64,000 nucleotides of DNA from a beta proteobacterium MWH-UniP1 (GTDB lineage: Bacteria; Pseudomonadota; Gammaproteobacteria; Burkholderiales; Burkholderiaceae_A). The DNA lies in contig CP143625.1 of NCBI GenBank assembly GCA_036362785.1, positions 497,401 to 561,400 on the forward strand. The letters are read 5' to 3'. Both the position numbers and the translations under genes were made by a program. The notes beneath the pieces were generated by a model, which saw nothing but the letters and a program-made list of their open reading frames with translations, was not told where the DNA came from and did no database searches. This document shows positions 12,144 to 36,988 of the stretch, one piece after another; the first letter of the stretch is position 1; each line of letters begins with the position of its first letter.

Positions 12144-12164
12144 TTCGATACTCCTTTTTCAGTT

Positions 12165-12950: not shown

Positions 12951-13474
12951 TAGTGGTTTCCTTCGTAGTGGGGGTCATTGGCTGCGGCGGGCATACGGCT
13001 AACGTCGATTTGCTCCAACCGATAACTGGGCTTGCCGGTCTTTAGCGTTCGTGCAGGCTCAAAAAGCGCACGCACTGCTGGTGGCCAGGCGTTGTATTTC
13101 GACTCGGAGACCGTGACCTCGATACCAACGTAGTTGTTCGGGTCCTCGCCCCACTTGCGCAGTGCGTCAACAGCATCACGTAGCTTCAGTTGGTCGTACT
13201 CAGTGCGTTTGGGCAGATCAGCGATAACGACATATCCATCGTTTTCAAACCGAACCCGGCCGGTATCCTTTCCCTCGTCCTTGCGCAAGGCGTGCGCCCG
13301 CTCTGCAAATCGACGGTTGAGTTCAGACTGCAGGAGTTGCTCGTAGTGACGGGCTGTCTCCTTGGTGTGATTTGTTTTTTTCAATAGCTGGTCAATCTCG
13401 GACAGTGGCAGGCCCTCAAGCTCTGCGACATACAACTGCCCAATTTCATCCAGCACGTCAGACTCAGGTGTCAT
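12950..13474 (-). CDS. Hypothetical phage protein
   Basis: A 174-residue protein of unknown function. The N-terminal half is helical and charged (LYVAELEGLPLSEIDQLLKK, HYEQLLQSELNRRFAERAHAL). A beta-rich middle part follows (GRVRFENDGYVVIADLPKRTEYDQ) and then EVTVSESKYNAWPPAVRALFEPARTLKTG. The phrase around YNAWPPAVRALFEPAR is typical of proteins next to phage Sak4 genes, but I know no biochemical role. It is translationally coupled to the ATPase gene downstream (1-bp overlap). A recombination or replication accessory is the simplest guess. Confidence 0.7.
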   Translation of the reverse strand: MTPESDVLDEIGQLYVAELEGLPLSEIDQLLKKTNHTKETARHYEQLLQSELNRRFAERAHALRKDEGKDTGRVRFENDGYVVIADLPKRTEYDQLKLRDAVDALRKWGEDPNNYVGIEVTVSESKYNAWPPAVRALFEPARTLKTGKPSYRLEQIDVSRMPAAANDPHYEGNH

Positions 13475-13486
13475 GGGAGCTCGCTT

Positions 13487-13900
13487 TCAGTTGGCGTGGT
13501 TGGTGGGGGTGGCGGATTTGAGACGGCTCCTGATTTCAGGTGGCGTGTGATTAGTGTTTGCGCGGACCGCTATGTACTTGTAATGACACTCAGCAATCCT
13601 GTTACTGAACAGGTGAACAAGCCCTAGCTCACAAGCAATCCACGCCCGTTTCGCAAGTGCGTTGAGTCGTTGTCGCTCACGGTATGGCAGGCCGCTGAAC
13701 GAATCGGATCGATCCATAATCAAGAAGCCCTCGTGATACTGAATCGCATCACCTGCCGCCGCCGTCGCGATCCAGTCGCACAGAGCTGGTTCGGTCAGTT
13801 TTTCTGTTCCTATTGGGGGTTGCGAAACGCCCCCCACACTTACCCTCTGGTCTACAGAGGCATGGCTTGTGGCCTTAAATTTCAATGTGTCGTCGTACAA
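13487..13900 (-). CDS. Hypothetical phage protein
   Basis: A 137-residue protein of unknown function, 12 bp upstream of the next operon gene. A central block (ALCDWIATAAAGDAIQYHEG, LIMDRSDSF) and a helical segment with RERQRLNALAKRAWIACE recall small phage early proteins, with a Tyr/Ile end KYIAVRANT. The helical part could be a winged-helix-like DNA-binding element. No Cys pairs or catalytic motifs are visible. Same-strand placement puts it in the early operon. Confidence 0.65.
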   Translation of the reverse strand: MYDDTLKFKATSHASVDQRVSVGGVSQPPIGTEKLTEPALCDWIATAAAGDAIQYHEGFLIMDRSDSFSGLPYRERQRLNALAKRAWIACELGLVHLFSNRIAECHYKYIAVRANTNHTPPEIRSRLKSATPTNHAN

Positions 13901-14019
13901 GTTCAGATCTCCGGGCGTGAGTTGGCCTATCGCCGCCGCCCGAGGGCGTGGCGCTTGTGTTGCTCTTAAGTGTTCTTACTGCGCGGAGTGCTTTTTTTTC
14001 TCAGGCACCCCGCAATCAG

Positions 14020-14595
14020 TTATGCGGCCGGCCGAATACCAAACATTCGCAAATGCATGCGCAAGTCGGTAAGACGGCGGTAGAAAGTTGCAGTGCTCAT
14101 GCCAGACGCTTTTACAGCGTCGGCAATGTCCTGGTGAGTACGCAAAAGGTCATAAATAGCCTGTTGCTCACTATTCATAAAAGCCGTGGCTACGCTTGAA
14201 TCGTGGCTATGCGTAGCCCGAGGGAAAACATCGTCATCCAGTTCCGACGCTGCGTAGGCCACTTCTTCCCGTGCCTCGAGGGGTCTTCCCATATCGGGAT
14301 CGTTCGCGGCAGATCCAGTGAATCCGCCCCAAAAGATAGTTCGTTGGCCAATAAGGTCGTGTACCAGCTCAATTGACCGGTTTTTGCTGATCATGCCGGT
14401 GAAGGTGCCGAGACTGCCCTTCGTGGGGTCAAACCGGTCTCTACGCTCAAGCAACGCTAGTGTTATTTCCTGCTCAAAGTCCTCGCGCTCGGCCTGTGAT
14501 AGGGCCTGTCTTGCGGCAACTTGTGCTGTTCGAACCCTAGCGGCTGTTATGGATGCCTGGAGGTACTCGTCCTGTACGGGTGCTGTGATTTTCAT
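14020..14595 (-). CDS. Sigma-70-like phage regulator
   Basis: A 191-residue protein with the layout of a small sigma factor. A region-2-like helix set (SQAEREDFEQEITLALLER, then RFDPTKGSLGTFTGMISKN) is followed by a variable linker and a C-terminal region-4-like HTH (IADAVKASGMSTATFYRRL, DLRMHLRMFG). It probably redirects RNA polymerase to phage promoters or acts as a regulator using the same fold. Its start is about 120 bp downstream of the 256-residue coiled-coil gene. The large Asp/Glu-rich linker is unlike ECF sigmas. Recognition of -10/-35 elements cannot be predicted from the sequence. Confidence 0.7.
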   Translation of the reverse strand: MKITAPVQDEYLQASITAARVRTAQVAARQALSQAEREDFEQEITLALLERRDRFDPTKGSLGTFTGMISKNRSIELVHDLIGQRTIFWGGFTGSAANDPDMGRPLEAREEVAYAASELDDDVFPRATHSHDSSVATAFMNSEQQAIYDLLRTHQDIADAVKASGMSTATFYRRLTDLRMHLRMFGIRPAA

Positions 14596-14712
14596 TTTCG
14601 ACTCTTCGTGTGCGGTTGAACATGTTTTGTATTGAATCCGGTTCGCTTAAGTGAGTCACCGCAGTTACGGTAGCGGCCTCCGCAGTTGCGGCAGCGGACG
14701 AAAAATACGGGG

Positions 14713-15483
14713 TCATGTCTGATCCAGTTGATTCAATGCAAGCGGAAACTTTTCCTCAAGGTTGCGCTTAGAAACACCTGGAACTCTTGGGAAATGAGCA
14801 ACCAAGGCCTCCACCACAGCTGTCTGATTCTTAAACACTGAGTGCGGCTGCCCTGAGGGGGTCTTCATCAAAAACAGCCTTAGCATCGACCCGATAATGT
14901 TTAGGTACGACGCTTCTGTTCGCGGCGCTGGAACACTCTCCGACGGGGTTTGTAATTTGGCAAGCAGCGCCTCATTCTCATCTGCCAGTCGATTTCTATC
15001 CGCTCTCAGATTGCGATATTCATCGGCGGCTTTCTCGAGCCTCGCCTTTAATCCATCGCGTTCTGCCTGAAGCGCCAAAAAGGCATCTGTTTTGATAGCT
15101 GAATGAGTATTGCGCTCAATGTCGTCAAATAAGAATTCTGGTTTGTCAGACGGAAACTGCGATGCGATCCAATCTTTTAAATGCTGCCTGGACACATGAC
15201 GTCTTTCGGGAGCCACATGCTCATCTACGACTTTCCCATTCTCTCGACTGCATGGCAAAAGTCCCTTCTCAATCGCGTCGTGTATAGCCCGACACCTCGG
15301 CTCGAGACATGAAATATAAGGATGCTTAAAAATGCCTCTGGCACTTTCTGTGGAGATTGACAGATGTTCATCCACCTCGCCCATAGGAATCCCACACCAA
15401 AGAGCCGCAGCAACTGGAACCCTATAGACCGTGAAATAGGCTTGCACGGCCTCGCAGCTGTCGTTTTCCCATTTTTTGTTCAT
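14713..15483 (-). CDS. Hypothetical coiled-coil protein
   Basis: A 256-residue protein with three visible parts: an N-terminal region with possible HTH character (VAAALWCGIPMGEVDEHL), a central coiled coil at roughly 135-175 (LQAERDGLKARLEKAADEYR, RNRLADENEALLAKLQ), and a C-terminal block (NIIGSMLRLFLMK, FKNQTAVVEALVAHF, GVSKRNLEEKF). The C-terminal block recurs in proteins from mobile elements, often at the end of similar coiled-coil proteins. I do not know its function. ATG 15483 overlaps the upstream stop as ATGA, so it is co-translated with the 185-residue protein. Confidence 0.7.
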   Translation of the reverse strand: MNKKWENDSCEAVQAYFTVYRVPVAAALWCGIPMGEVDEHLSISTESARGIFKHPYISCLEPRCRAIHDAIEKGLLPCSRENGKVVDEHVAPERRHVSRQHLKDWIASQFPSDKPEFLFDDIERNTHSAIKTDAFLALQAERDGLKARLEKAADEYRNLRADRNRLADENEALLAKLQTPSESVPAPRTEASYLNIIGSMLRLFLMKTPSGQPHSVFKNQTAVVEALVAHFPRVPGVSKRNLEEKFPLALNQLDQT

Positions 15484-16037
15484 TTCGCTTCGCTCCCTTG
15501 GTCTTCGTCTTTAGCAGCGTCTTTCGGAACATCTGGTTCCATGTCTTTGGCGCCGATATCAATAGCTCGCACCTGGAGTTGCTGAAATAACCCCTCTTGT
15601 ATCTGGTCTCGCAGATTCCAAATAACCTTGTGGGGGTTGAAGATCAGTACATAGTGGTAGGGGCCTGCGGGGCCTTCTTTGGCATCGATAAACCCGAGTT
15701 GTTTCAAGGAGGCCATCCGGTCTTTCCAGGTTGAAAGCGCACGTTCACCAGTAAAGCCTGCCTCGGACGCGAAGGTCATTGGGTTGTCGATGACCAACAT
15801 AGAGTGATCAAAGGCACGGCACCACAGAACGAAGTAAGAGCGCCCGCCGGGCTTGTTCTTGGTAAGTGAGTCGATGATGTTCATCAGAACCGGCATCGTC
15901 CTGGGGATCACGGTGAATCCCTTTACCAACTTTCGGTCCCACAGAAGGCCCTCGTCGACATTGGGCCAAAAGCTGTCGCGCAGCGACTTGTTCTTCTCCT
16001 GAGCTTTGGCGGCCTTCTTATTGAAAACTGCTGCCAT
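15480..16037 (-). CDS. Hypothetical winged-helix-like phage or plasmid protein
   Basis: A 185-residue protein, the first gene of the leftward operon. ATG 16037 has AAAGGA about 6 nt upstream, so the frame to 16073 is not used. The core (MPVLMNIIDSLTKN, SYFVLWCRAFDHSMLVI, ALSTWKDRMASLKQLGFI, YHYVLIFNPHKVIWNLRDQI) reads as a winged-helix domain of the kind seen in replication initiators and partition-associated proteins. The C-terminus is an acidic tail. It may be an early replication or copy-control protein of the element; direct evidence is lacking. It forms an ATGA overlap with the next gene. Confidence 0.65.
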   Translation of the reverse strand: MAAVFNKKAAKAQEKNKSLRDSFWPNVDEGLLWDRKLVKGFTVIPRTMPVLMNIIDSLTKNKPGGRSYFVLWCRAFDHSMLVIDNPMTFASEAGFTGERALSTWKDRMASLKQLGFIDAKEGPAGPYHYVLIFNPHKVIWNLRDQIQEGLFQQLQVRAIDIGAKDMEPDVPKDAAKDEDQGSEAK

Positions 16038-16612
16038 TGGGGGTCCTTTCAGTTGCGGTTTCGATTGGAACAATTGTCCACCGAAAGGAGCCCGACTCGC
16101 AATGAGAAAGACATCTCAACTCATGCCCAATAGACCTTAAATTATGCTAACTCAAATATTGAGTTTGCTAAAAAATATGCACTTTCATAAATTCAAATCG
16201 AATTTTTAATGACAATAAAATCTTGGTAGTTGTTACTTATCAAGCACTTATAAAAATTTTGCTGTATTCATAGTATTCAGTGATCTTGATTATCTTTGTT
16301 GTCATAGTAGTCATGTGGCCGCCCCGGAATGCCTGAGGTCCTGTTTTTGAGGCTCAAATAGGGGTTTGGCGACCACAGACCCCAGCATCACTGGTGCGGT
16401 GCCCTGAGAAAAAAGCTGTGGCCGGGCAGTAATAACAGGTATGCCGAAACATGCCCCCTCCCTCCCGAACCCCGCCTTAACCCTACCCGTAGCCGAGCTG
16501 GCCCCCTTATGGGGCTGGGGTGCAGTCAGGCTCCTGAATAAGCGCAAACAACTTGCTGAACGCACCGAACAGAGCGTTAGTACAGGTGTTTTGACCACCC
16601 AGGAGGAATCCG
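16038..16612. other. Divergent intergenic region between phage operon and recombinase triad
   Basis: A 575-bp gap. Positions 16130-16310 are markedly AT-rich, with the palindrome at 16149 and loosely repeated TCATAGTA-type words at 16268-16311. Positions 16312-16600 are GC-rich with no convincing gene. It must contain the leftward early promoter and a rightward promoter for DUF2924/recombinase, and it could hold an attachment or origin sequence. Confidence 0.5.
16141..16170 (-). promoter_or_regulatory. Palindromic operator in likely early leftward promoter
   Basis: AACTCAAATATTGAGTT (16149-16165) is a perfect 7-bp inverted repeat with a 3-bp centre. On the minus strand a CATAAT -10-like box (16146-16141) follows directly. 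The layout suits a repressor site over the promoter of the leftward phage operon that begins at 16037. The -35 box is poor, so the promoter call is tentative. Confidence 0.45.
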
Positions 16613-17059
16613 ATGACGCTCAGTAGCACCCTGGCCCGCGTGGCCGCCCTGAAATCTGCCCCGATGAGTGATCTGCGGCGGATGTGGGAGCAGTTATTCC
16701 ACCAACCAGCACCTCAATTCAACCGTCAATTCCTCGAAAGCCGGCTTGCCTACCGGATACAAGAGCTCGCCTTGGGCGGGCTTAAACGGGAGACCGTTCG
16801 ACGCCTTGAGCGTCTCGGCGATGAGCTAGACGGGGGCAAAAAGCATGTTCGAAAGCGGCGCCTGGACAACCGCCCGGTTGCCGGTACAAGGCTCATTCGT
16901 GAGTGGAAGGGGGTAACCCACGAGGTGACCGTTGCTGACGATCACTTTGTTTACCAAGGCAAGCCCTACAAGTCGCTCTCAAGCATTGCGAAGGAGATCA
17001 CCGACACAAACAGGAACGGCTGGGCGTTTTTTGGTCTGCAAAGCTCGAGGGGCGGCTAA
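16613..17059 (+). CDS. DUF2924 domain protein
   Basis: A 148-residue DUF2924 protein. Recognisable blocks are the N-terminal LRRMWEQLFHQPAPQFNRQF, the helix RLAYRIQELALGGL, the basic linker GGKKHVRKRRLD, and the C-terminal GTRLIREWKGVTHEV, DDHFVYQGKPYKSLSSIAK, ITDTNRNGWAFFGL. AGGAGG lies about 6 nt before ATG 16613. The stop overlaps the recombinase ATG by one base (TAATG). DUF2924 genes are very often found directly upstream of large serine recombinases. The C-terminal part resembles small DNA-binding add-on domains, so it may be a directionality or accessory factor; this is inference. Confidence 0.88.
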   Translation: MTLSSTLARVAALKSAPMSDLRRMWEQLFHQPAPQFNRQFLESRLAYRIQELALGGLKRETVRRLERLGDELDGGKKHVRKRRLDNRPVAGTRLIREWKGVTHEVTVADDHFVYQGKPYKSLSSIAKEITDTNRNGWAFFGLQSSRGG

Positions 17060-18417
17060 TGGCAACACCTCAACGCAAACTCTGCTGCGCAATCTACACT
17101 CGCAAATCCACTGACGAGGGGCTTGAGCAGGACTTCAACTCGCTCGATGCCCAACGCGACGCATGCGAGAACTACATCTCCAGCCAAAAAGCCGAAGGAT
17201 GGCTGCAACTTCCTGAGCGTTACGACGACGGCGGCTACTCCGGCGGCAACATGGACCGCCCCGGACTACAGCGGCTGATCGCCGACATTAAGAAAGGGGT
17301 TGTCGACATCATCGTTGTTTACAAGATCGATCGCCTATCTCGATCGCTTGCTGACTTTGCAAAGCTGGTGGAGATCTTTGACGAGCACAAGGTGACATTT
17401 GTCTCCGTAACGCAGTCCTTCAACACAACCACATCGATGGGCCGGCTCACGCTGAACATCCTGCTCTCATTTGCACAGTTTGAGCGAGAGCTAGCCGGTG
17501 AGCGTGTGCGCGATAAGATTGCCGCATCACGACAGCGCGGTATTTGGATGGGCGGCATGCCCCCGCTTGGCTACGACGTGTCTGAACGAAAGCTCGTCCC
17601 AAACCCGGCGGAAAGCAAACTCGTGCAAGAGATCTTTCGCCGGTTTGCGCTGGTTGGCTCTATGGCTAACTTGGTCAAAGACCTCAGAGCGAAAGGCATC
17701 ACCTCGAAGTCATGGACTACCGCAAAGGGTGTTGAGCGAAAAGGAAAACTGGTCGACAAAGGTTATATCTACAAGCTTCTGAACAACCCGGTGTACTTAG
17801 GTATTGCTGCCTACAAGGGACAGCATTTCACGGGCCAGCATCCGGCGATCGTCGACCAAGCGCTTTGGGATCAAGCACACAAAGCACTATCCCGTGATCG
17901 TGAAAAGAAACAGAAAAAAGCCGCACGCTCTGAGCGCGACTCGAAGGCACCCTGCCTCTTAAAGGGGCTTCTTTACTCCGCAGAGGGGCGTTGCTTTACG
18001 CCTGGCTACACGATTAAGAAACAGAGGTACTACAGGTATTACATCAATACCGATGCCATCAAGCTAGGGTCGGCTGCGTGTGAGGTGCAGCGCCTCCCGG
18101 CGGGTGAAATCGAGGCAGTGGTCATCGAGAAGGTGAAAGAAGTTCTGCGCCTGCCTGAAATCACCGCAGCGGCCGTTGCGGAGGTAACAAGACTACGACC
18201 AGATATCGAAGAGGATGAGGCTATCGATGCCTTGCGATCTATTGATGCGGTCTGGGATGAACTCTTTCCAGCCGAGCAGGCTAGGATTGTTAAAAGCCTG
18301 ATCCACCGGATCACTGTGCGTCCGGATGGAGCATCGATTGAATGGGTCTCCGACGGAGTTGCAAAGCTGATTAACCAGACCGTCCGCCCGAGAGAAAACT
18401 TGTTGGAGGCAGCATGA
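17059..18417 (+). CDS. Large serine recombinase (integrase/resolvase family)
   Basis: A 452-residue recombinase. Residues ~8-150 form the catalytic domain: IYTRKSTDEG with predicted nucleophile Ser17, YDDGGYSGGNMDRPGLQRL, VVYKIDRLSRSLADFAKL, and FAQFERELAGERVRDKI. A recombinase domain follows from about residue 170 (GGMPPLGYDV, LLNNPVYLGIAAYKG), then a zinc-ribbon-like zone with only two obvious Cys, and a C-terminal tail. It would catalyse integration or excision through short att sites. It is coupled to DUF2924 (1-bp overlap) and to the next gene (ATGA). Being the only intact integrase-type gene here, it is the likely mover of part of this island, but no att pair is evident. Confidence 0.93.
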   Translation: MATPQRKLCCAIYTRKSTDEGLEQDFNSLDAQRDACENYISSQKAEGWLQLPERYDDGGYSGGNMDRPGLQRLIADIKKGVVDIIVVYKIDRLSRSLADFAKLVEIFDEHKVTFVSVTQSFNTTTSMGRLTLNILLSFAQFERELAGERVRDKIAASRQRGIWMGGMPPLGYDVSERKLVPNPAESKLVQEIFRRFALVGSMANLVKDLRAKGITSKSWTTAKGVERKGKLVDKGYIYKLLNNPVYLGIAAYKGQHFTGQHPAIVDQALWDQAHKALSRDREKKQKKAARSERDSKAPCLLKGLLYSAEGRCFTPGYTIKKQRYYRYYINTDAIKLGSAACEVQRLPAGEIEAVVIEKVKEVLRLPEITAAAVAEVTRLRPDIEEDEAIDALRSIDAVWDELFPAEQARIVKSLIHRITVRPDGASIEWVSDGVAKLINQTVRPRENLLEAA

Positions 18418-18815
18418 CGCCCACGACTGAAATAGCGATGAACTTTTATCGCCGAGGCGTCAAAACGATCATCATTAAACCGGACGGCTCTCGAGTCCTT
18501 GAGCGAAAAGAGGCCAAGGTCGATAACAGCATGGTCAAGGCTATCGCTCGGGGATTCAGGTGGCAGCGAATGATGCTTGATGGCGTTTACAACACGATCT
18601 ACGACATCGCTGAAAAAGAGAATATCAGCCCATCGTTTGTCAGCCGAATTTCCCGGCTCGCAACTCTATCCCCCCGAGTCGTTGAGTCAATCGTTGAAGG
18701 TAAGCATCCACCGCACCTGACGATGAAAGACTTATTTAAGCCTTTTCCAGCCGAGTGGGCGTTACAAGAACAGGTGTTCTTGAACCTGACTCCTATCGAA
18801 TGGACAGACCAATAA
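18414..18815 (+). CDS. HTH accessory protein of the recombinase triad
   Basis: A 133-residue protein coupled to the recombinase by an ATGA overlap. It has an Arg-rich middle (MVKAIARGFRWQRMML) and an HTH (TIYDIAEKENISPSFVSRI) followed by conserved SPRVVESIVEGKHPPHLTMK, FPAEWALQEQ. This small protein commonly follows large serine recombinases of this type. It is probably DNA-binding and may control recombination direction or expression; no function is proven to my knowledge. Its 3' end overlaps the DUF4236 gene on the other strand by 23 bp. Confidence 0.72.
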   Translation: MTPTTEIAMNFYRRGVKTIIIKPDGSRVLERKEAKVDNSMVKAIARGFRWQRMMLDGVYNTIYDIAEKENISPSFVSRISRLATLSPRVVESIVEGKHPPHLTMKDLFKPFPAEWALQEQVFLNLTPIEWTDQ

Positions 18816-19128: not shown

Positions 19129-19368
19129 TCAATAACCCATAACCTCGCCGACATACAAGCGGACTTCATCATCTGGCTGCTTAATCTCCACAGCAACGCA
19201 ATCATTGTTGATAATCGCCTTCTGTAGTTCACTGGCCTTCTTGCAATAGACGACTCGCCGATTGCACTCGTTGCAGTGGCGAACTTTGGGGTCGTGCGTT
19301 TTCATTAAAGCGTCCCAGTCTTTAGGGCACTTGAAGCGAAACTCACAGTTTCGGATCTCAGCAGTCAT
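19129..19368 (-). CDS. Small Cys-rich protein
   Basis: A 79-residue protein dominated by a putative zinc-binding domain: CEFRFKCPKDWDAL, then DPKVRHCNECNRRVVYC, then ELQKAIINNDCVAVEI. Six or more Cys in C-x5-C, CxxC and C spacing suggest a metal site. The same pattern forms the C-terminus of the next gene upstream (19373-19942), so the two are tandem paralogues sharing a domain. The genes are only 4 bp apart and read in the same direction. I know the general domain from uncharacterised bacterial proteins but not its role. Confidence 0.7.
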   Translation of the reverse strand: MTAEIRNCEFRFKCPKDWDALMKTHDPKVRHCNECNRRVVYCKKASELQKAIINNDCVAVEIKQPDDEVRLYVGEVMGY

Positions 19369-19372
19369 AGAT

Positions 19373-19942
19373 TTAACCCCCCGCCCGAATGGCGATCACA
19401 AGGTTATCAAGCAAGGCATCCCTGATTTTGTAGGGCGTGGTACACAGCTTTACTGGGTTCGAGCAGTCAGCACAGAAGCGGATACTTGGATCTTTTGCAG
19501 CAGGTAGGTTATCCCAGGTTTCCGTGCAGTTTGCGCCATTGGGGCAGTTACGAATAACAACACCCAGCTCGTCGGGATTGGAGTAGGCTCGTACATCGGT
19601 CGACATGGAAGCGATCCAGTCTGCCGCATTGACCCAAGGTGCAGGCACAGAGAAGGTATCAATGTAGATTCGGCCGTCGCGATGAACGATTCGAACAGCG
19701 GGCCCCTGCAAATTCAGTGTTCGGAAGCTAAGAATGGTGCCAAGGTCGACGGTGGTGTAGCCCGACCACTCCCCAGACAAAATAGGTAAGGACGTTTGCA
19801 CGCCTGGGCGTGTGATGACAAAGTCCGTGCCCTTGGCTGAGAGATCGACAGGCAGTTGGCGACTTTGCTTGGTTAGCCGCTTGGGCGCAATGACCTTCAG
19901 AGCCTCGACGAACTGTTTTCTGTCTAAGTGAACCTCAGTCAT
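19373..19942 (-). CDS. Hypothetical protein: clamp-like domain plus Cys-rich domain
   Basis: A 189-residue protein. Residues 1-105 (LDRKQFVEALKVIAPKR, LSAKGTDFVITRPG, TTVDLGTILSFR, AVRIVHRDGRIYID) have the helix-then-beta-strand rhythm of one domain of a DNA sliding clamp; this is a resemblance by eye only. Residues ~125-189 repeat the Cys-rich pattern of the downstream gene: CPNGANCTETWDNL, DPSIRFCADCSNPVKLC, IRDALLDN. No catalytic motif is visible. It is divergent from the HTH pair that opens the defence-like operon, sharing a 162-bp promoter region, so joint control is possible. Confidence 0.6.
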   Translation of the reverse strand: MTEVHLDRKQFVEALKVIAPKRLTKQSRQLPVDLSAKGTDFVITRPGVQTSLPILSGEWSGYTTVDLGTILSFRTLNLQGPAVRIVHRDGRIYIDTFSVPAPWVNAADWIASMSTDVRAYSNPDELGVVIRNCPNGANCTETWDNLPAAKDPSIRFCADCSNPVKLCTTPYKIRDALLDNLVIAIRAGG

Positions 19943-20104
19943 AAGAACTCCCAGCAGCCCTTAAGCATCACGGGCCAAGATAACCTCCTTCAGTATCACC
20001 CAGTGAGCCTGCTGCACGGCATCATGATTATTCTTTGCAAAGATTGGACTGGTTTGCCCTATCTTCCACTATACTGACCATATCCATTATGTGGGAGAAA
20101 TCCG
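19943..20104. promoter_or_regulatory. Divergent promoter region of the defence-like operon
   Basis: This 162-bp region separates the Cys-rich gene (minus) from the tandem HTH genes (plus). A good -10-like TATACT sits at 20070-20075 for the plus strand; TTGGAC at 20044-20049 is 20 bp upstream, which is too far for an ideal -35. GGGAG lies about 9 nt before ATG 20105. The two excisionase-type HTH proteins encoded next are the obvious candidates to bind here. Confidence 0.4.
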
Positions 20105-20326
20105 ATGGCCGAACAGCCGCCGCCCGCCATGACCGTCCGCGACGTTGCAGGGTTCCTAGCCGTGGATGAGAAGACGATCTACCGCCTGGCCCAACAGGGG
20201 AAGCTACCCGGCTTTAAAGTGGCAGGTACCTGGAGATTCCAGCTGCAGGATATTCAAGGGTGGATTGATGCACAAAAAGTAGCCGTGAAAGCGAGGAAAT
20301 TAAACAAAGCGGGGAGCCCAGCATGA
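20105..20326 (+). CDS. Excisionase-type HTH protein (HTH_17), first copy
   Basis: A 73-residue MerR-like/excisionase HTH_17 protein: MTVRDVAGFLAVDEKTIYRL, AQQGKLPGFKV, TWRFQLQDIQGWID. The whole protein is essentially one winged-HTH with a basic tail. It starts a five-gene plus-strand operon and its stop overlaps the start of a second HTH protein of the same type (ATGA). As it precedes helicase, methylase and ATPase genes rather than an integrase, a role as autoregulator of the operon is more likely than DNA excision. That is inference. Confidence 0.85.
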   Translation: MAEQPPPAMTVRDVAGFLAVDEKTIYRLAQQGKLPGFKVAGTWRFQLQDIQGWIDAQKVAVKARKLNKAGSPA

Positions 20327-20508
20327 CCATCGGGGCAGTCGCCGACTACCTCAAGGTCACCGAGCGAACGATCTATCGGCTAGCAGGAGCCAAGCAGATC
20401 CCGGCTTTTAAGGTGGGCGGGAGCTGGGGGTTTTCTAAGGCCGACATCGACTCTTGGATTAAAAGGCAATCAGAAGAAAACTCCCAAGGAGGCGCCCTTG
20501 AAACTTGA
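20323..20508 (+). CDS. Excisionase-type HTH protein (HTH_17), second copy
   Basis: A 61-residue HTH_17 protein closely similar in layout to the preceding one ([40 protein letters not shown]). The pair looks like a tandem duplication or a split two-HTH regulator. Start overlaps the first HTH gene by 4 bp, and the end overlaps the helicase start by 11 bp, so all three are translationally coupled. The two could bind adjacent half-sites as a heterodimer. Not related to phage excision in this context as far as can be seen. Confidence 0.83.
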
Positions 20509-23500
20509 AGAAATCACAAAGGGCGCTTTGGTCGCAGGCATTGAGCCGGGCAAGACAGTCCGCGTGGTGAGCGTGGATCCGGTCGGTGACAACGCCATCA
20601 CTGTCGTCTATCGGACGGAAGACGGGAGCCTTCGCGATCGGATGCTGTTCCGATCAAACGAAGTAGATCTGTCCATCGCTACTGCTGGTCGGCCATGGAG
20701 CTTCGACGCCGACGGGGAGGGTTTCAAGCTCGCGGCGGAGGCTATTCGGATCAACCTGGCTCACTTGTTCGATCCGATGATGGCGGTGCACACCTCCAAC
20801 GTGGAGCCGCTACCCCACCAGATTACGGCAGTCTACGAATCAATGCTTCCCAGGCAGCCGCTGCGCTTTGTGCTCGCCGACGACCCCGGCGCCGGCAAAA
20901 CCATCATGGCGGGCCTCTTAATCCGCGAGCTCCTGATGCGCGCAGACGCTGCTCGCGTGCTGATCGTTTCCCCCGGGAGCCTGGTCGAGCAATGGCAGGA
21001 CGAGCTTTACGAGAAGTTTGGCCTGTCGTTCACGGTCTTCTCCCGTGAGCTGGTGGATCAAAGCCGCACAGGTAACCCCTTTGAAGACCATGACCTGGTG
21101 GTCGCGCGACTTGACCAGCTCTCCCGCAGCGAAGAGCTCCAGGAGAAGCTGAAGCTCAGCCGCTTCGACCTGGTAGTGGTCGATGAAGCCCACAAGCTAT
21201 CGGCCACCTGGTTCGGCACCAAGATCAACGAAACCAAGCGATTCAAGCTGGGACAACTCCTGGGCTCGATCACGCGCCACTTCCTGCTGATGACCGCCAC
21301 GCCTCACAACGGGAAGGAAGAGGACTTCCAGCTTTTTCTGTCGCTGCTGGACTCCGACCGCTTCTACGGCAAGTTCCGCGACGGCGCCCACAAGGTTGAC
21401 GTCTCCGACCTCATGCGCCGAATGGTCAAGGAAGACCTCTTGAAGTTTGACGGCACCCGTCTATTCCCTGAGCGCATCGCCTACACCGCCAACTACAAGC
21501 TCTCCGAGGCCGAGGCCGAGCTCTACAACTTGGTGACGACCTACGTGAAGGAGGAGATGAACCGGGCCGATGCGTTGGATGGGAAGCGCAAGGGCACGGT
21601 GGGCTTCGCTTTGACGGCCTTGCAGCGCCGACTCGCCTCTAGTCCCGAGGCCATCTATCAATCCTTGAAGCGCCGCCGCGACAAGCTCAAGCGCCGCATC
21701 GAGGAAGAGAAGATCAAGCAGCGCGGCGGCAAGATCGCCGCCTCCGAAATTTTCGCCGACCAAGCCCCGGAGAACATCTGGGACTCCGAGGACGATATGG
21801 CCCCGGAGGACTACGAGAACTTCGAAGAAGAGGTCGTTGACCAGGCGACGGCGGCACAGACCATCGCCGAGCTCGAAGCGGAAGTCTTCACCCTCGAGCA
21901 CTTGGAGAAGAAGGCCAAGGCGCTACGCGATGGCGGCCAGGACCGTAAGTGGGAAGAGCTCCGCGAAATCCTACAAAACACGCCGGAGATGCGCGGGCCC
22001 GATGGCTTGCAGCGCAAGCTCATCATCTTCACCGAGCACCGCGACACTCTCAACTACCTGGCCGACCGCATCCGCGGGCTGCTGGGCAAGCATGAGGCCG
22101 TCAACATGATCCACGGTGGCGTGCATCGCGAGGACCGCCGCAAGGTCCAGGAGCTATTCCGCAACGACAAGGACACCCGGGTCCTTTTAGCCACCGACGC
22201 TGCCGGCGAAGGCGTGAACCTGCAAAACGCCAACTTGATGGTCAATTACGACCTGCCGTGGAACCCCAACCGCTTGGAGCAGCGCTTCGGTCGCATCCAC
22301 CGCATTGGCCAGACGCAGGTTTGCCATCTCTGGAACATGGTGGCGAATGAGACTCGCGAGGGCGATGTCTTCCAGAAGCTCTTCGACAAAATCGAAATCG
22401 AGCGGAAGGCCCTAGGCGGCCGGGTTTTCGACATCCTAGGTGAAGTCTTTGATGGTGTGAGCCTCCGCGACCTTTTGATCGAGGCCATCCGCTACGGCGA
22501 AGATCCCGACCGCAAGAAGCATTTACAGGAGGTGGTCCAAGGAGCTCTCGACACCGACAAGCTGCGCGAGATCATCAGCCGCAACGCCCTGGCCGAGGAG
22601 GTCATGGACGAACGCAGGCTCTTCGCATTAAAGGAAGAGATGGAGAAGGCCGAGGCGAGAAAGCTCCAGCCCTACTTCATCCGGGCCTTTTTCTCGCAGG
22701 CCTTCGACCGCCTAGGGGGCGACTTGAAGCTTAGAGGCTTCGGCCGCTTCGAGATCACCCATGTCCCGGCTCTGATCCGAGAGCGCGACCGCCAGATCCA
22801 AGGCCGCGATCGGCGCAACATGAACCCGATCACGCCCAAATACGAGCGGGTTTGCTTCGAGAAGAGCCGCATCCGGGTCGACGACAAGCCCGGCGAAGCC
22901 CTGGCGAGCCTTCTGCACCCAGCCCACCCGCTGATGCAATCGGTGGTCGACCTGACCATCGAGCAGCACCGCAGCAAGTTGAAGCAGGGCTCCGTCTTGC
23001 TTAATCCCAACGACGAAAGCGTAGAGCCCAAGTTAATGCTCATGCTTGACCACTCCGTCAAGGAAGGTGGCGAGTCTGGCGTGGTGGTGTCGCGCAGGCT
23101 TCAGTTCGTCACGATCGACCAGGCGGGTCGCATCGAAAACGCTGGATGGGCTCCACACTTGGATTTAACCCCACTCGACGAGGTCCAGTCGAAGATGGTG
23201 GCCGACCAGCTCGATGCCCCATGGATCAAGAAGGATTTGGAGCAGGTCGCGCTGGCCCATGCTTCCGACAAGCTCGTCCCCGAGCATTTTGAAGAGGTCC
23301 GCTCCCGCCGCGAGCTGCAAGTGGACAAGAACCTGGCCGCCATCCGCGAACGCCTCGTCAAGGAGATCGACTATTGGTCGGATCGCCACGAGAAGTTGAA
23401 GACCGACTTACAGGCCGGCAAGGATGTCCGCCTACCGTTGGAGAACGTACGCCGAACCATCGACGAGCTCACCGTCCGTCTGGAGAACCGAAGCAAAGAG

Positions 23501-24019
23501 CTGGAAGCCATGCGCCATGTGGTCTCGGCGATGCCGGTGGTGGTCGGTGGCGCGCTGGTGATCCCCGCCGGACTCTTGGCTCAGCGTAACGGCGAGCCGC
23601 AGGGCCAAGCCTGGACAGCCGATGCAGATGCCCGCGCGCGCATCGAGCGTGTTGCGATGGAAGCCGTCCGCAAAGCCGAAGAGGCCCTGGGCCACCAGGT
23701 GATCGATGTTTCGGCTGAGAAATGCGGTTGGGATTTGACGGCCGTTGTGCCCGTATCCGACGGGAAGCTACCGCAGGCCCGCCACATCGAAGTCAAAGGC
23801 CGAGCCAAGGGCCAGTCAACCATCACAGTCACCCGCAACGAAATTCTCTACGGGCTCAACCAGGCGGACAAGTTCATCCTGGCTGTGGTGATCGTCGATG
23901 GCGACAGCCACGAAGGACCGCACTACATCCGTAACCCATTCACGCAAGAGCCCGACTGGGCGGTGACCAGTATCAACTTGGACCTCGCGTCCTTGCTCGA
24001 AAGGGCACAAGCAACATGA
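20498..24019 (+). CDS. SNF2-type helicase with C-terminal DUF3883 nuclease-like domain
   Basis: A 1173-residue SNF2-family helicase. Walker A DDPGAGKT is at about 128-135, DEAH at 229-232, motif [12 protein letters not shown], and the second RecA domain ends with [13 protein letters not shown] near 590. A long charged helical region separates the domains. The C-terminal ~100 residues are a DUF3883 domain with a PD-(D/E)XK-like signature: GWDL (D1079) and HIEVKG (E1098, K1100). It may translocate on DNA and cut it. The start is TTG 20498 with AAGGAGG 5-6 nt upstream, inside the HTH gene end. It is coupled to the methylase gene (ATGA). The gene is clearly GC-richer than the methylase gene that follows. 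Confidence 0.9.
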
Positions 24020-26886
24020 CGACACCAATCAAAGCACCGAAGAAGCTGATCGAAGTGGCTTTGCCACTCGACGATATCAATATCGCCGCTTCGCACGAAA
24101 AATCAGTTCGCAACGGGCACCCGTCAACCCTTCATTTGTGGTGGGCTAGACGTCCTCTAGCAGCGGCGCGTGCTGTGATATTTGCTCAGATGGTCAACGA
24201 TCCAGGCTATGAAAGAAACCTTGGTCGTGGGGTGAACAAGGAAAAGGCAAAACAAGAGAGAGAACGTCTCTTCGGAATCATTCGCAAGTTGGTTCTTTGG
24301 GAGAACACGAGCAATCAAGATGTTCTTGCGGAGGCGCGGCAGGAAATAAAAAAGAGTTGGCGAGAGACTTGCGAGCTCAATCGTGGGCATCCTAACGCCA
24401 ATGAGCTCTTCAATCCAGATGTTCTCCCAGAGTTTCATGACCCGTTTGCGGGTGGTGGTGCATTGCCGTTGGAGGGCCAAAGGCTGGGGTTTTCAAGTTA
24501 TGCGACGGACTTGAATCCAGTCGCAGTCTTGATCAACAAGGCAATGATTGAGATTCCGCCGAAATTTGCTGGAATGAAGCCGATCGGGCCGGAAGCACCA
24601 GACGAGCGCCAGATGAAACTTGGCTCCGAATGGTCGGGCGCAAATGGTTTGGGATTGGACGTCCACAGGTATGGGATATGGCTACGTGATGAGGCGTTTA
24701 AGAGGATTGGTAAGTTCTATCCCCAAGTCGAGTTGCCGAAAGAGCATGGAGGCGGCAAGGCAAATGTGATTGCATGGATTTGGACTAGAACAGTCAAGAG
24801 TCCGAATCCTGCCTACTCGCATGTGGACGTGCCGCTGGCGTCCACATTCATCATTTCCAGCAAGAGTGGGAAAGAAGCCTATGTCCAACCAGTAGTCAAA
24901 GGTAATGAATATTTCTTTGAGGTAAGGCTGGGGAAACCTCCCGAGAGTGCGAAAAGCGGTACGAAGCTAGGCCGTGGCGCGAATTTCAAATGTCTCATAT
25001 CCGATTCGCCGATTGACCCAAAACACGTCATCGCCGAGGCGAATGAGGGTCGTTTGGGTGAGAGATTAATGGCAGTAGTCGTGGAAGGGCGCCGTGGACG
25101 CGTTTATTTGTCAGCAAGTCCAGAGATGGAACGTCTTGCAAAGACTGCGGTTCCGAGCTGGAGGCCAGAAGTTGAGATGCCTGAGAACCCCCGCTGGTTT
25201 TCGCCGCCGCTATTTGGATTGAAAAGCTACGGCAGCTTGTTCACCAACCGCCAACTCTTGGCACTCAATACGTTTTCAGATTTGATTCATGAAGTTCGCG
25301 CAAAGGCAAAAGCCAATGCGATAAAGGGCGGCATGAAAGATGATGGTTTGGGTTTGCGCGATGGTGGAAGTGGAGCGACCGCATATGCGGAATCGATATC
25401 GGTTTACTTGACATTCGTTCTCGACAAGATGGCTGACATCGGGAACACGCTAGTGAGGTGGGAGCCTGTGGCGCAATGTCCCCGACAGCTATTCGGTCGT
25501 CAGGCGATACCGATGATTTGGGACTTCGCCGAAGCAAATCCATTCTCGACAAGTTCAGGCGCCTGGGAAGTATTCTTGGACGGCGTAACGAAAGCGTTCC
25601 TCAAAGCGTTCGCCGATGTTGAAGGATGGTATCGAGGGACTGTTCAGCAGGCCGACGCCCAAAGGCAGACCGTGTCTCAGGGTAAGGTTGTGTCGACCGA
25701 TCCCCCCTATTACGACAACATTGGCTATGCGGATCTATCGGATTTCTTTTACGTATGGATGCGGCGTTCGCTTCGAGAGGTATTCCCTCACCTATTCTCT
25801 ACGATGGCAGTTCCGAAAGCAGAGGAACTAGTGGCGACGCCGTATCGACACGGAGGGAAAGAGAAAGCCGAGCTCTTTTTCTTGGATGGGATGACCGATG
25901 CGATGAGTCGAGTGGCTGATCAGGTGCACCCCGCCTTTCCGACGACTATCTATTACGCGTTTAAGCAGTCGGAAACCACTGATGTAGGCACCGGAAACAC
26001 AGGTTGGGAAACATTCCTTGAGGCTGTGTTGCGGGCAGGGTTCTCCATTACTGGCACGTGGCCGATGAGAACAGAGAACGAGAGCCGCATGGTGGGGCAA
26101 GGAACAAATGCTCTTGCGTCAAGCATTGTCTTGGTTTGCAAAAAGCGCGATCCCACCGCAGGGACCATCTCTCGACGTGAATTCTTGAAGGAGCTCAAGG
26201 AGGAGATGGCCGAAGCCGTCGAAGTGATGATCGGCGGAGGCGACGGCGTTTCACCGGTTGCCCCAGTGGACCTCGCTCAGGCTGTGATTGGGCCTGGTAT
26301 GGCGATCTTTTCCAGATATACCGCCGTGCTAGAGGCGGATGGCAGCCCAATGACCGTCCATACCGCTCTCACTCTTATCAACAGGATGCTGACCGAAGGG
26401 TCCGATGAGTTTGATGCAGACACTCAGTTTTGCTTGGGGTGGTTTGATGAGCAATCATGGGTCGGAGGAGAATTCGGAAAGGCAACAGTTCTAGCGCGCG
26501 CAAAGGGAACAAGCGTAGATCGGCTGAGAGAAGCTGGGGTCGTAGAAGCGACGTCAGGGCAAGTTCGACTGTTTAGACCTATCGAATATCCACCAGATTG
26601 GTTGCCAGAGAACGATAACAACACGCCTGTCTGGGAGGCTTTGCATCAAATGATCCGTGAACTTCGTACCGCGGGTGAGTCGGCAGCAGGTGCGCTGCTC
26701 GCCGGTATGCCCCAGAGAGCAGAGCCGATTCGGAACCTTGCCTATCGGCTCTACACGCTTTGCGAGCGCAAAGGCTGGGCGGAGGACGCCAGGGCCTACA
26801 ACGAACTGATTACATCCTGGACTGGCATCGAAGCCGCATCCCATGAGAAGGGGCACTTAGGATCGCAGACCAAGCTCGAAATTTGA
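24016..26886 (+). CDS. DUF1156 DNA methyltransferase
   Basis: A 956-residue protein. The N-terminal DUF1156 segment ([38 protein letters not shown]) leads into motif [13 protein letters not shown] at about 142-153, and motif IV DPPYYDN lies near 562-568, giving an amino-methyltransferase of the N6-adenine/N4-cytosine type. The large insert between the motifs and the C-terminal helical region are typical of this family and may carry target recognition. It starts in an ATGA overlap with the helicase gene, and the ATPase follows after 11 bp. Its base composition is visibly more AT-rich than both neighbours, which hints at a separate history. It would mark self DNA in a defence system; that is inference. 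Confidence 0.9.
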
Positions 26887-26897
26887 GGGAAGAGAAC

Positions 26898-29786
26898 ATG
26901 GCACTGAAACCTTGGCGCGAGATCGCCGTTCCGCATGAGGACGTGCTTAAAGGCACGTTCCAACAGGCTGAGTTCGCAGCCGACATTTCCAAGGTCCATC
27001 AAGGGATCGCGACGCCTGAATATCAGGATGCTGAGCTCTTTTTTCAGCGGACCTTCATCACCGAAGGCATGCGCCTGCTGCTGGACTCTGTGGTCAAGCG
27101 GATCGCCGGTAAAGGCGGCGACCCGGTGGTGCAGTTGCAGACGGCGTTCGGTGGCGGCAAGACCCACACGCTGCTGTCGGTCTACCACCTGGCCAAAGGC
27201 GAGAAGCCGTCTTCCAAGCTGCAAGGCGTCAGCAAGATCCTCGACGACGCAGGCATCGCAGAGCTCCCAAAAGCGAAGGTTGCGGTGCTCGATGGCGTCG
27301 AGCTGCTGGACATGGCCAGCAAGCCGCGCTCATACGGCAAGACCACGGTCAAAACCATCTGGGGCGAGCTCGCCTGGCAGCTTGGCGGCGCCGAAGCCTT
27401 CGCCAAGATCAAAGAAGCCGACGCCGATGGCACGGCGCCCGGCAAGAGCGCGTTGGCCGACATCCTGGCCTCCGCGGCTCCCTGCATCGTGCTCATGGAC
27501 GAGCTGGTGCGCTACGTCTCGCAGTTCGAAGAGGGCAAGGCCCTATCCGGCGGCACCTACGACACCCAGCTCTCCTTCATCCAGTCGCTGACCGAGGCCA
27601 TCAAAGGCGTCCCCAACGCGATCCTGCTGGCGTCTCTGCCGTTCTCGGACCGTGAAGCGGGCAGTCAACAGGGCGTCAAAGCTCTGCGGGCCTTGGAGCA
27701 CTACTTCGGCCGCGTGCAGGCGCTCTGGAAGCCCGTGGCGACCGAAGAGGCCTTCGAGATTGTCCGCCGCCGGCTGTTCACCAACGTCAGCGACAAGCTC
27801 GCGGCCGAGGAAGTCTGCCGAGCCTATGCCGACTTCTACACGGGCAACTCGGGTGACTTCCCACCAGAAACTCAGGAGTCGGGCTACTTGCAGCGGCTCC
27901 AGCACGCCTACCCCATTCATCCCGAGGTCTTCGATCGGCTCTACGAGGACTGGTCCTCACTGGATAATTTCCAGCGCACCCGCGGCGTCTTGAAGCTTAT
28001 GGCGAAGGTGATCCATCGCCTTTGGACTTCTGGCAACAACGACCTGATGATCCAGCCAGGATCGCTTCCCTTATTCGACCCTGACTGCCGAAACGAGGCC
28101 ATCTACTACTTACCTCAGGGTTGGGATCCAGTGCTCGAGCGCGACATCGACGGCGAGCGAGCCACCACGACAGAGCTCGACAACGCCAAGCCCCTATTCG
28201 GCGCGATCCACGCCTGTCGGCGCATCGCTCGGACGGTCTTCCTGGGTTCAGCTCCTGACGCGGGCATTGTGGGTGGCTCCAAGCACCACCGCGGAGTCGA
28301 GCTCGAGCATGTGCTCCTGGGCTGCGCTCAGCCTGGCCAAGTCTTGGGGCACTACAAGGATGGGGTGCGGGCCCTCGTTGATCGCTTGCAATACATCAAC
28401 AGCGCCGACAACCGCTATTGGTTCGACACGCGCCCAAACCTCCGCCGCGAGATGGAGGATCGCAAGCGTCGCTTCGATCTGCGCGAAGACGTCTACCCGT
28501 TCATCAAGGACAAGCTGCGCTTCGCCAGCGGCATCTTTGGCGGCATACATGTCTTCACTGACTCGGCCGACGTGCCTGACGATTGGCAACTGCGCCTGGT
28601 GGTGCTCACCCCCGAGGCCACCTTCTCGCGCTCGGCGCAGGCGACGGCGATCGATGTGGCGACCGCGATCTTGAAGACCCGCGGCGACCAGCCTCGACAG
28701 AAGCAGAACCGGCTGATCTTCTTGGCTCCCGACTCAGACTCGATGTTGCGGCTGAAAGACCAAGTCACTTCAGTGCTGGCCTGGAAGTCCATTGTCGACG
28801 ACGTAAAGGAGGGGCGCCTCAACCTCGACGTCCACCAGAGCAAGCTGGCCGGCCACAGCCACGACCAAGCGTCGGAGGCCTTGAGCCGCATGATGCGCGA
28901 GACCTACAAGTGGCTCTTGGCGCCATTGCAGGAGGTCAAGCCAGGCAAGGGTATTGGCGACCTGCAGTGGGATCACTTCCAGATCAATCCTGCCGCGGTC
29001 AACCGCACCGAAGAGATCGAGAAGGTTCTGCGCGAGCACGAGCTTCTCATCACAGAGTGGGCTCCCATCCACCTGGCGAGGATGCTGCAAGCGTGGTTCT
29101 GGAAGGAAGGCCAGCCTGCCGTGTCGGCGGCCGAGGTGTGGCAGAAGACTTGCTGTTACCTCTACTTACCCAGGCTAAAAGACGACGACGTTCTGCGCGC
29201 CACCATCGGAGCCGGTGTTACATCGCGCGACTTTTTCGGCATCTCTTACGGTGTGGTGGAAGGCCGCTACCAAGGCTTCCACTTCGGGGAGCCTACGACA
29301 GTCATCTTTGATGATGCTCTCCTACTGGTCGAGCCATCAGCGGGTGCCAAGTTCGCGGATCTGCTGGCCAAAGAGAAGGCTGAGCGTGATGCAAAGGCAA
29401 AGGGCGAGGCTGGTGGTGCTGCGGGCGGAGCCGGTGCGGTCGGTGAGGCAGGTACTGGCGGCGTTGGCGGTGGCGCAGGCAGCGAAGCAGGAGCTGGTGC
29501 TGGCGGCAATCGCGGAGCCGGTGGCGACAGTCCGCCTAAGACCCTTGCCGAGAAGAAGACAGTGTTCTTCGGCCAAGTCGAGCTCGACCCTGTCAAAGCC
29601 AAGCTTCAGTTCTCGGATTTTGCTGAGGAGGTGCTCATGCTCTTCACGTCCAAGCCAGGTGTGAAGGTCAAGGTGAGCCTTGAAATTCAGGCGGAGGCGC
29701 CAACCGGTTTCGACGAGTCAACCCAACGAGCGGCCCGCGAAAACTGTAACCAGCTCAAATTTAAAAATCACGGCTTCGATGACTAA
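26898..29786 (+). CDS. DUF499 P-loop ATPase
   Basis: A 962-residue DUF499 protein. Walker A is [11 protein letters not shown] (about 83-93); Walker B is likely [12 protein letters not shown] near 195-206. The GGGKTH form of the P-loop is shared with the large ATPases of BREX-type systems (BrxC/PglY). Residues ~834-877 are a Gly/Ala-rich flexible linker, followed by a small C-terminal domain ([19 protein letters not shown]) that may contact partners. ATG 26898 has GGAAGAG upstream; the TTG at 26883 is not needed. It is the last gene of the operon. A molecular switch coupling methylation and restriction is a reasonable but unproven role. Confidence 0.9.
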
Positions 29787-29820
29787 TGGCACCGATAGGC
29801 CAGTAGCCTGTCCACCCATC

Positions 29821-29890
29821 CAATCGGTACGCACCGGAACACCCCATTTTTGAGAGGCGTACCTAGCCTTGCTCAGGTCAACAGGTTTTG
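29821..29890 (+). repeat. 70-bp direct repeat, copy A
   Basis: Sequence from CAATCGGTACGC to CAACAGGTTTTG, matching copy B at 36989-37058 at 65 of 70 positions in the same orientation. The core CGTACCTAGCCTTGCTCAGG is identical. Copy A lies just after the ATPase gene and directly abuts the left end of the ISL3 element. The copies flank about 7.1 kb (IS remnant, zinc and copper genes). They may be attachment-site remnants or a dispersed repeat of this genome. Confidence 0.75.
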
Positions 29891-30425
29891 GCTCTTCATC
29901 ATTAAAGGGGGACAGCGGTATTCATTAAACTAGTTTTTGCGAAGAACGGGTTTAATGGAGGTAATACCGATGTCCCAGAATAATTCTATATTGGGGTTGT
30001 CCGATTTAGTCATTGATCGGGTGGAGCAGCGCCGTGATATTCATGTGTGGGCAAGGCCCAAGTCTAGACCGGCGTGCTTGCACTGTCAGCAAGGGCCGGT
30101 GCGGGTTAAAGCCACCTGCCAAAGGACGCTAAAACACACCCGCCAGGGCAACCAGCTCATCGTCTTGCACCTGAGTGTTCCCAAGTACCACTGCCCGGCC
30201 TGCAATCGATACTTCCGGCACCGGTTTGCGGGCATCCGCCCAAGGCTTCGGGCCACCGAGAGCTTTCGGCTCGAGGTCTTTGAAGCCCATGACGGTGGGG
30301 TGAGCCAGAGTAAGTTGTCATCGACCCATCGGGTGAGCTGCGCAACGGTTGAGCGCTGGTATCAGCATCATGTAAAGCGTCGGGTGTCAGAGCTCTCTGG
30401 CAGAGACTGCCCACAGGTGCTGGGT
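29890..30425 (+). mobile_element. ISL3-family insertion sequence, 3' truncated
   Basis: The element begins with a GGCTCTTCATC terminus at 29890, resembling the GGCTCTT ends of ISL3-family elements, and contains the N-terminal part of its transposase. It stops at about 30410-30425 inside the transposase motif CPQVLG, where the sequence changes to an antisense CobW gene. No right inverted repeat is present, so it cannot move on its own. Confidence 0.7.
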
Positions 30426-30449
30426 CGGCAAGACCCGTGGTCTCAATAA
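29970..30449 (+). pseudogene. ISL3-family transposase, N-terminal fragment
   Basis: About 150 residues of an ISL3 transposase (usually about 400). ATG 29970 has GGAGGT upstream. The N-terminal zinc-finger region is intact (ACLHCQQGP, KYHCPACNRYFRHRF), followed by an HTH (SHRVSCATVERWY-like part) up to GRDCPQVLG. Full-length enzymes continue into the catalytic DDE domain, here missing; the last residues RQDPWSQ come from the neighbouring CobW gene read on the opposite strand. The catalytic core is absent, so the gene is inactive. Confidence 0.85.
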
Positions 30450-30735
30450 TCACCCGATCAAATCGAATCTCGCCATTGTCTTTCTTTCGATGAAGGTCTC
30501 CAAGAATACGTACAAGGTCGCCTCGTACGGTGCAGCAGATACAGCCGTTGTTCATCTCAACGATCTGCTCATCCCGATTCTTTACCAGTAGTTCGTTGTC
30601 AATACCCGCTTCTCCAAACTCATTTTCAATGACCGCAATCCGCTGCCCGTGCTTCTCCGTAAGAATGCGATTTAGCAGCGTTGTTTTTCCGCTGCCTAGG
30701 AAGCCCGTAAGAATGGTTACCGGAATTTGATTCAT
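30157..30735 (-). pseudogene. CobW/ZNG-type GTPase (metal chaperone), truncated
   Basis: Residues 1-105 are a clear G3E GTPase of the CobW family: Walker A GFLGSGKTTLLNR at about 11-23, ENEFGEAGIDNELL, the zinc-binding CICC motif (NNGCICCTVRGDL), and ETTGLADPAPV. After PV (about base 30424) the frame runs antisense through the ISL3 remnant to 30157 and carries no CobW sequence, so about two thirds of the protein is lost. Its ATG overlaps the ZnuA stop (ATGA). In an intact form it would deliver zinc to client proteins under zinc limitation, consistent with its place in the zinc importer operon. Confidence 0.85.
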
Positions 30736-36945: not shown

Positions 36946-36988
36946 ACAGTTTTCGGAGCCAAATACACCACACCAACTAACCCCCGTT

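Follow-up and report, generated by a model that had tools for sequence, protein, structure and literature searches.

The 64,000-nucleotide stretch of DNA analysed here (the window; positions 497401-561400 of the 2,049,113-base single-contig genome of the beta proteobacterium MWH-UniP1) carries a five-gene operon whose three large genes, encoding HmaA, HmaB and HmaC, are on sequence grounds an intact-looking copy of the already named Hma defence system. The two small helix-turn-helix (HTH) genes at its head, HTH1 and HTH2, are not Hma genes and form part of a leader that also precedes other restriction operons. As a whole, we think it rather probable that the operon is best explained as an intact-looking Hma system, also described as a Type-1 bacteriophage exclusion (BREX)-related (BR) system, which would act in the manner of restriction-modification (RM) and which stands behind a separate HTH leader.

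All three large proteins match PADLOC models at near full length, with 2051 bits for HmaA, 1584 and 1569 bits for HmaB (its two models) and 1427 bits for HmaC; the runner-up models reach 414 (DrmD, for HmaA), 114 (a type II methylase, for HmaB) and 134 bits (DUF499, for HmaC). The three matches are adjacent and co-directional, and this is the gene content of Hma in PADLOC. Pfam domains are SNF2/Helicase_C and NOV_C in HmaA (NOV_C, PF13020, which we take to be the former DUF3883, at residues 1049-1143, 2.5e-20), DUF1156 in HmaB, DUF499 alone in HmaC, and HTH_17 in both small proteins. Together with the motif alignment described below, these domains bear out a previous reading of the sequence alone (the sequence-only reading), which had seen a helicase with a nuclease-like tail, a methyltransferase and an ATPase with a GGGKTH loop. 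The layout also proved to be as that reading had drawn it: the listing of open reading frames (ORFs) and inspection of the sequence give five plus-strand ORFs, joined by an ATGA overlap (HTH1/HTH2), an 11-bp overlap (HTH2/HmaA) and a second ATGA overlap (HmaA/HmaB), with HmaC starting 11 bp past the methylase stop. For HmaC, the longest frame begins at a TTG at 26883, and we prefer the ATG at 26898 because in the longer form the PADLOC model match leaves out the first five residues and begins at residue 6.

The sequence-only reading had taken this operon for an under-described system, and had set beforehand the question of whether a database already named it. This claim was wrong, because PADLOC holds the trio as Hma. 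The system was named in 2021 from 1,638 instances in 26 phyla (PMC8565338), and the same trio was re-described in 2026 as the DUF499-centred Type-1 BR system (PMC12839542); we thus rejected an undescribed system, since the PADLOC models and these two papers already cover the trio. The window copy has the same three genes, order and domains as the Hma of PADLOC and PMC8565338. As characterized in PMC12839542, Type-1 BR contains an N6-methylase, a DUF499 ATPase, in which a HEPN domain may be present or absent, and a helicase, which in 79% of the taxa has an additional C-terminal PD-(D/E)XK nuclease; further traits given there are an N-terminal TUDOR domain on the helicase and an RRM at the C-terminus of the ATPase, and a Halomonas study cited in the same paper is reported there to have demonstrated a role of the helicase-nuclease in phage defence. 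The window operon is likewise tripartite, with a C-terminal restriction endonuclease on the helicase and a DUF1156 methylase. Its HmaC has no Pfam match to HEPN, like the ATPases of 1076 of the 2446 taxa reported (2446 minus 1370; PMC12839542). The DUF3780 gene, given as the marker of Type-2 BR in PMC12839542, had no match in this genome or in any of 14 control genomes, so this control is uninformative.

Membership of the operon in BREX or DISARM was also rejected, in agreement with the sequence-only reading, which had noted that the hallmark genes of both are absent. In a search confined to the five proteins of the operon, Pfam and PADLOC gave no match to PglZ or BrxC (DUF6079). As for DISARM, which is marked by the set DrmA, DrmB and DrmC, HmaA scores 414 bits to DrmD vs 2051 bits to its own model, and 394 to a DrmD-type NCBIfam model, below the cut-off of 610, while HmaB and HmaC match no Drm model.

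The trio is conserved in content and order, as the sequence-only reading had expected. Among the best 80 loci of 505 candidate stretches encoding an HmaC relative (53-93% identity), 77 have HmaB on the upstream side of HmaC and 60 have HmaA on the upstream side of HmaB, several of the remaining loci being cut by contig ends (e.g. L017, L036); to judge from these counts, the arrangement is not due to chance. We then aligned 41 trios, comprising the window and 40 loci in which each of the three window proteins is covered over at least 90% of its length (39 of the 80, plus L099 from genome G080). All 41 agree in the key motif residues of the helicase, in GWD and HIEVKG (nuclease), in DPF, GGG and DPPY (methylase), and in GGGKTH and the DE of the second motif (ATPase); the remaining positions of these catalytic motifs vary. 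At 1e-50, HmaC was found in seven of the 100 genomes searched, this one included, and in none of 25 other genomes of the family, within which the window copy is thus isolated. In the relatives, intergenic gaps exceed 250 bp between HmaA and HmaB (37/60) and between HmaB and HmaC (40/77), and many hold ORFs; the window operon has no embedded gene between its core genes. Among the gap ORFs listed for L015-L094, we named by eye DUF262-, AAA-, NYN- and HEPN-like ones, and 'Hma-embedded-candidate' systems are described in PMC12111858.

Variation within the trio is centred on the methylase. In 24 pairs of loci (20 loci) with HmaA at least 90% identical, there are 20 in which the identity of HmaB is more than 5 points below that of either partner. 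Mean HmaB identity in these close pairs is 74-89% outside positions 181-540, 54-56% at 361-480 and 37% at 481-540, a trough that lies between the DPFAGGG and DPPY motifs. For instance, the window and a Pandoraea locus (L015) share 96% identity in HmaA and 94% in HmaC, and 59% in HmaB; at the DNA level, their identity drops at the HmaA/HmaB border to 41-72%, a level that holds for most of HmaB, amounts to 65-77% in the final ca. 700 bp of the gene and returns to about 90% in most of HmaC. An outlying methylase between operons with helicases that are 90-98% identical suggests that HmaB is the specificity subunit. HmaB, being the most variable protein and having a central trough, is therefore probably the one that sets the target, and it would be exchanged or diversify separately from its partners. 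Some results weigh against this view: HmaB is not a clear outlier in four of the 24 close pairs, and its identity still correlates positively with that of HmaA (0.54, lower than the 0.77 between HmaC and HmaA). The DPPY motif is typical of amino-methyltransferases. Its presence in HmaB argues for such an activity, against the label of 5-methylcytosine enzyme given to HmaB in PMC8565338, which is a further point on the opposing side.

Recognition of the invader could instead reside in the C-terminus of HmaC, and PMC12839542 does propose such a role for the ATPase, citing its hypervariable C-terminal RRM fold. HmaC identity in the close pairs goes from 77% at 781-840 to 49% at 841-900. However, the window HmaC has a Gly/Ala-rich linker at 841-882, and identity is back to 86% at 901-960, vs 37-56% at 361-540 of HmaB, which makes this alternative distinctly unlikely. 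With HmaB as the specificity subunit, the protein would probably mark self DNA by methylating adenines at a target that depends on its variable central domain; HmaC, an ORC/STAND-like ATPase, and HmaA, a SNF2 translocase, would probably form or recruit a DNA-scanning complex; and the C-terminal nuclease of HmaA would cut at unmodified sites. The same genes might also work as in BREX, with an ATPase/helicase complex that blocks phage replication, an accessory nuclease and unmodified sites left uncut. The trio is indeed homologous to BrxC, BrxXI and BrxHII of BREX type 3 (PMC12839542), and HmaA also matches the BrxHI/BrxHII models of PADLOC, but the invariance of GWD and EVK in all 41 nucleases and the prevalence of the helicase-nuclease fusion in Type-1 BR taxa (PMC12839542) make a BREX-like mechanism unlikely to be the right one.

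The HTH pair had been included in the system by the sequence-only reading, and this did not hold. Using up to 700 bp upstream of HmaA in 43 other Hma loci where the 5' end of HmaA could be read (two of them with less than 320 bp), a profile search that recovered both window genes as positive control found an HTH_17 gene in a single locus, L075, which was also the only one of the 80 loci with a relative of HTH1 or HTH2 in tblastn. We thus rejected the pair, whose members are 48% identical, as conserved fourth and fifth Hma genes.

Relatives of HTH1 do occur in front of other restriction genes. The same genome contains paralogues at 1394521 (84% identity) and at 459306 (frameshifted), each directly before a type I RM operon. 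The leader block at 19996-20277, consisting of the promoter and HTH1, shows 91% DNA identity to the copy at 459306 and 96% to a copy in G013, from another genus of the same family, where it heads an operon for a phospholipase D (PLD)-type helicase and a type IIG methylase; the copy at 1394521 is 88% identical over 147 bp. The operons so headed have no DNA similarity to each other at 1e-6 beyond the leader and a tail repeat (see below), and the left flanks of the islands carrying them have further DNA in common.

A wider search indicated that this position is not peculiar to the family. An HTH1 relative was found at 1e-12 in 31 of 399 genomes of the order, this genome included. Of 31 places outside it we counted 29, treating G013 apart (also positive) and dropping G279, with 91 bp downstream; the next gene was defined as the first ORF on the same strand to start within 600 bp and to encode at least 200 amino acids (that of L157 overlaps the HTH gene). 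In 12 of the 29 loci, this was a restriction, BREX or DUF499 gene (PADLOC, 1e-20): type I in L156 and L169, type III in L174, type IIG in L163 and L164, type II-like in L159 and L160, HKD-Snf2 in L158, L173 and L175, DUF499 in L157, and BrxA, 553 bp away, in L172. We left out of these 12 the UvrD-type next genes of L165 and L167 (L167 assigned by PADLOC and Pfam, as L165), which reach 1e-20 generically. The next genes of L166 and L177 are weak DUF499 ATPases by Pfam, without PADLOC match, and five others encode HSP70 (L176 and, judged by likeness, L179) or HSP20 (L178 and, by likeness alone, L181 and L183); eight loci have no qualifying ORF. Several loci are kin and not independent (L158/L173/L175, L159/L160, L163/L164, L166/L177, L176/L179 and L178/L181/L183). 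As a control, we took 92 ORFs from eight 20-kb stretches chosen arbitrarily in seven genomes, and none matched at 1e-20; these were the longest non-overlapping frames of at least 200 amino acids, and some may not be genes. The more distant HTH_17 homologues, in other families, are 44-67% identical.

We propose that HTH1 acts as a BldC-like regulator in a portable leader that heads restriction operons. Its nearest solved structure, and the sole one at E 0.01, is 6amk (E 0.0016, a weak match), and 6AMK is named in the BldC paper, according to which BldC binds 9-bp direct repeats head to tail (PMC5859096). The direct repeats of the window promoter (Table 1), identified by eye, would be the operator. 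A 17-base core written from the leaders, ATTGGACKGGWTTGCYC, has exact matches solely at the three leaders of this genome. The word AAGTTTG occurs in 10 of 28 leader upstreams, vs 0.7 expected from shuffles and one of 85 control upstreams, the leaders being more AT-rich than the controls (51% vs 61% G+C), and TTKGC repeats at 9-11 bp occur in five of the 28, kin loci included, vs two of the 85. By eye, the leaders L156 and L157 of two other families resemble the window promoter, in which a consensus scan found no canonical sigma-70 promoter. The repeats, the kinship with BldC and the core pattern support autoregulation by HTH1, short of proof. The HTH proteins would thus probably bind their own promoter at its 9-10-bp direct repeats and control the expression of the overlapping, presumably co-transcribed, operon, and likewise of the other restriction operons that they head.

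Several observations do not fit this proposal well. The window promoter lacks AAGTTTG, the commonest word of the family, as does the leader L095, and it is not among the five with TTKGC repeats at 9-11 bp. Moreover, the HTH1 paralogue at 459306 (L096, 9306-9501) is split by one extra base in an 8-G tract, and the hsdS of the type I operon behind it (L096, 11059-12354) also looks split by eye; the two splits may be decay or phase variation.

In its most general form, the proposal would make the HTH_17 protein and its promoter a portable self-regulating leader common to type I, type III, type IIG, PLD-helicase, BREX, DUF499/BR and Hma operons, which would be swapped behind the leader, and partly between the leader and a common tail, by recombination; we hold this tentatively, as a serious possibility. 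The HTH pair could instead be mobility genes, excisionases or directionality factors of the element carrying the operon, given that two of the four PHROG matches of HTH1, the best included, are excisionases, that an integrase lies 1.7 kb upstream of the pair, and that leader and tail flank three different operons. This is unlikely, because 12 of the 29 loci have a restriction, BREX or DUF499 gene as the next large gene, with no integrase among the classified next genes, and the HTH gene is preceded by a conserved promoter-like stretch. Somewhat less unlikely, though still not favoured, is that leader and tail are mere relics of homologous recombination at one type of island, and that the position before restriction genes has no function. 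The other DNA that the left flanks have in common and the frame-shifted HTH copy are in line with such relics, as are the tail copies at places without a recognised defence gene, two of these places having been judged by eye only. However, the same 12 loci belong to distant homologues in other families, and promoter words are common to those distant leaders, which speaks for a leader regulator.

Comparable regulators have been described, from which the leader differs. BldC is a regulator of development in Streptomyces, to which HTH1 is similar in being of the HTH_17/BldC type by sequence, and its repeat, AATTXXXX(C), is unlike those of the window (PMC5859096). RptR of a type I RM system is likewise a small DNA-binding protein encoded directly before restriction genes, with direct repeats in the promoter; as described in PMC12255303, it has 79 amino acids, TAGCTA sites and no close structural homologue, whereas the leader encodes HTH_17 proteins and has TTTGCC/TTGGAC-like repeats. 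BrxR/CapW also represent one regulator family across diverse defence systems, but are WYL-domain proteins (PMC9122601), unlike the HTH_17 leader proteins of 60-75 amino acids. We found no earlier description of an HTH_17 leader, in a literature search that covered few subscription journals and does not establish its absence from print.

Table 1. Features of the Hma operon and its surroundings (window coordinates).
Feature	Position	Strand	Description
Serine integrase	17059..18417	+	Pfam Resolvase/Recombinase; PHROG integrase 2.9e-105; part of neighbouring phage-like element, outside Hma
Promoter	19996..20104	+	promoter part of leader block
Candidate operator	20034, 20044, 20053		direct repeats TTTGC, TTGGAC and TTTGCC, 10- and 9-bp spacing
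HTH1	20105-20326	+	73 aa; HTH_17, 1.3e-12; BldC/excisionase-type leader gene
HTH2	20323-20508	+	61 aa; HTH_17, 1.6e-14; tandem relative of HTH1
HmaA	20498-24019	+	1173 aa, TTG start; SNF2-type helicase with C-terminal NOV_C nuclease
HmaA nuclease	about 23642-23926	+	NOV_C/DUF3883, PD-(D/E)XK-like (Pfam)
HmaB	24016-26886	+	956 aa; DUF1156 amino-methyltransferase (predicted) with DPFAGGG and DPPY
HmaB variable zone	about 24556-25635	+	presumed target recognition, from variability profile
HmaC	26898-29786	+	DUF499 AAA+ ATPase
Tail repeat	29815..29890	+	76 bp, 28 bp past HmaC; 89% to G013 copy, 88% to own-genome copy

The tail repeat also follows the G013 operon (46 bp past it) and the type I operon at 459306 (207 bp past it), and no copy was found after the operon at 1394521. 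In 26 genomes of the family it appears at six places, three of which, one with a long copy and two with copies of 36-42 bp, have no recognised defence gene alongside. A dedicated cassette end is weakened by these three places, and the tail is, from its distribution, a dispersed repeat with a bias. In the window, a long copy (36983-37200) lies beside MbnP/MauG-type genes; over 215 bp it shares 87% identity with the copy that follows the type I operon.

The operon adjoins a phage-like element (3300-18815). The sequence-only reading was right in seeing a defence module of a known kind and in setting it in accessory DNA next to a recombinase, the neighbour being the serine integrase. On its minus strand the element encodes a ParB-type methyltransferase, a primase, a DNA helicase, a Cas4-like exonuclease and a Sak4-like protein, and on its plus strand a DUF2924 protein, the integrase and a possible SopB-type HTH protein (weak match, E 0.008, short of the cut-off). 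Small Cys-rich ORFs lie upstream of three HTH-led restriction operons, in the window (19190-19942), L095 (10139-10543, minus strand) and L096 (8136-8402, minus strand), and had no Pfam match; their region shows 89% DNA identity between L095 and L096, window positions 19190-19368 are 68% like L095, and the window ORF at 19373-19942 (minus strand) has by eye a similar Cys pattern. Elsewhere in the genome, L097 (3975-14696) holds a further type I RM pair, identified by eye, near a serine recombinase with 68% DNA identity to that of the window over 518 aligned bases. On the right, at 29937-30735, a short transposase-like ORF overlaps a short CobW-type GTPase ORF, beside a zinc-uptake-like cluster (all named by eye). 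In an empty-site comparison, the right-flank gene of the operon was not detected at 1e-20 in the six other genomes of the genus.

In all, the operon itself adds one more copy of Hma, and what is newer is the methylase-centred variation and the shared leader. If the proposed leader regulator is real, it would offer one handle on the expression of many different restriction systems and could serve as a key in searches for further ones, and it would bear on the question of how restriction systems are controlled on their arrival in a new host.

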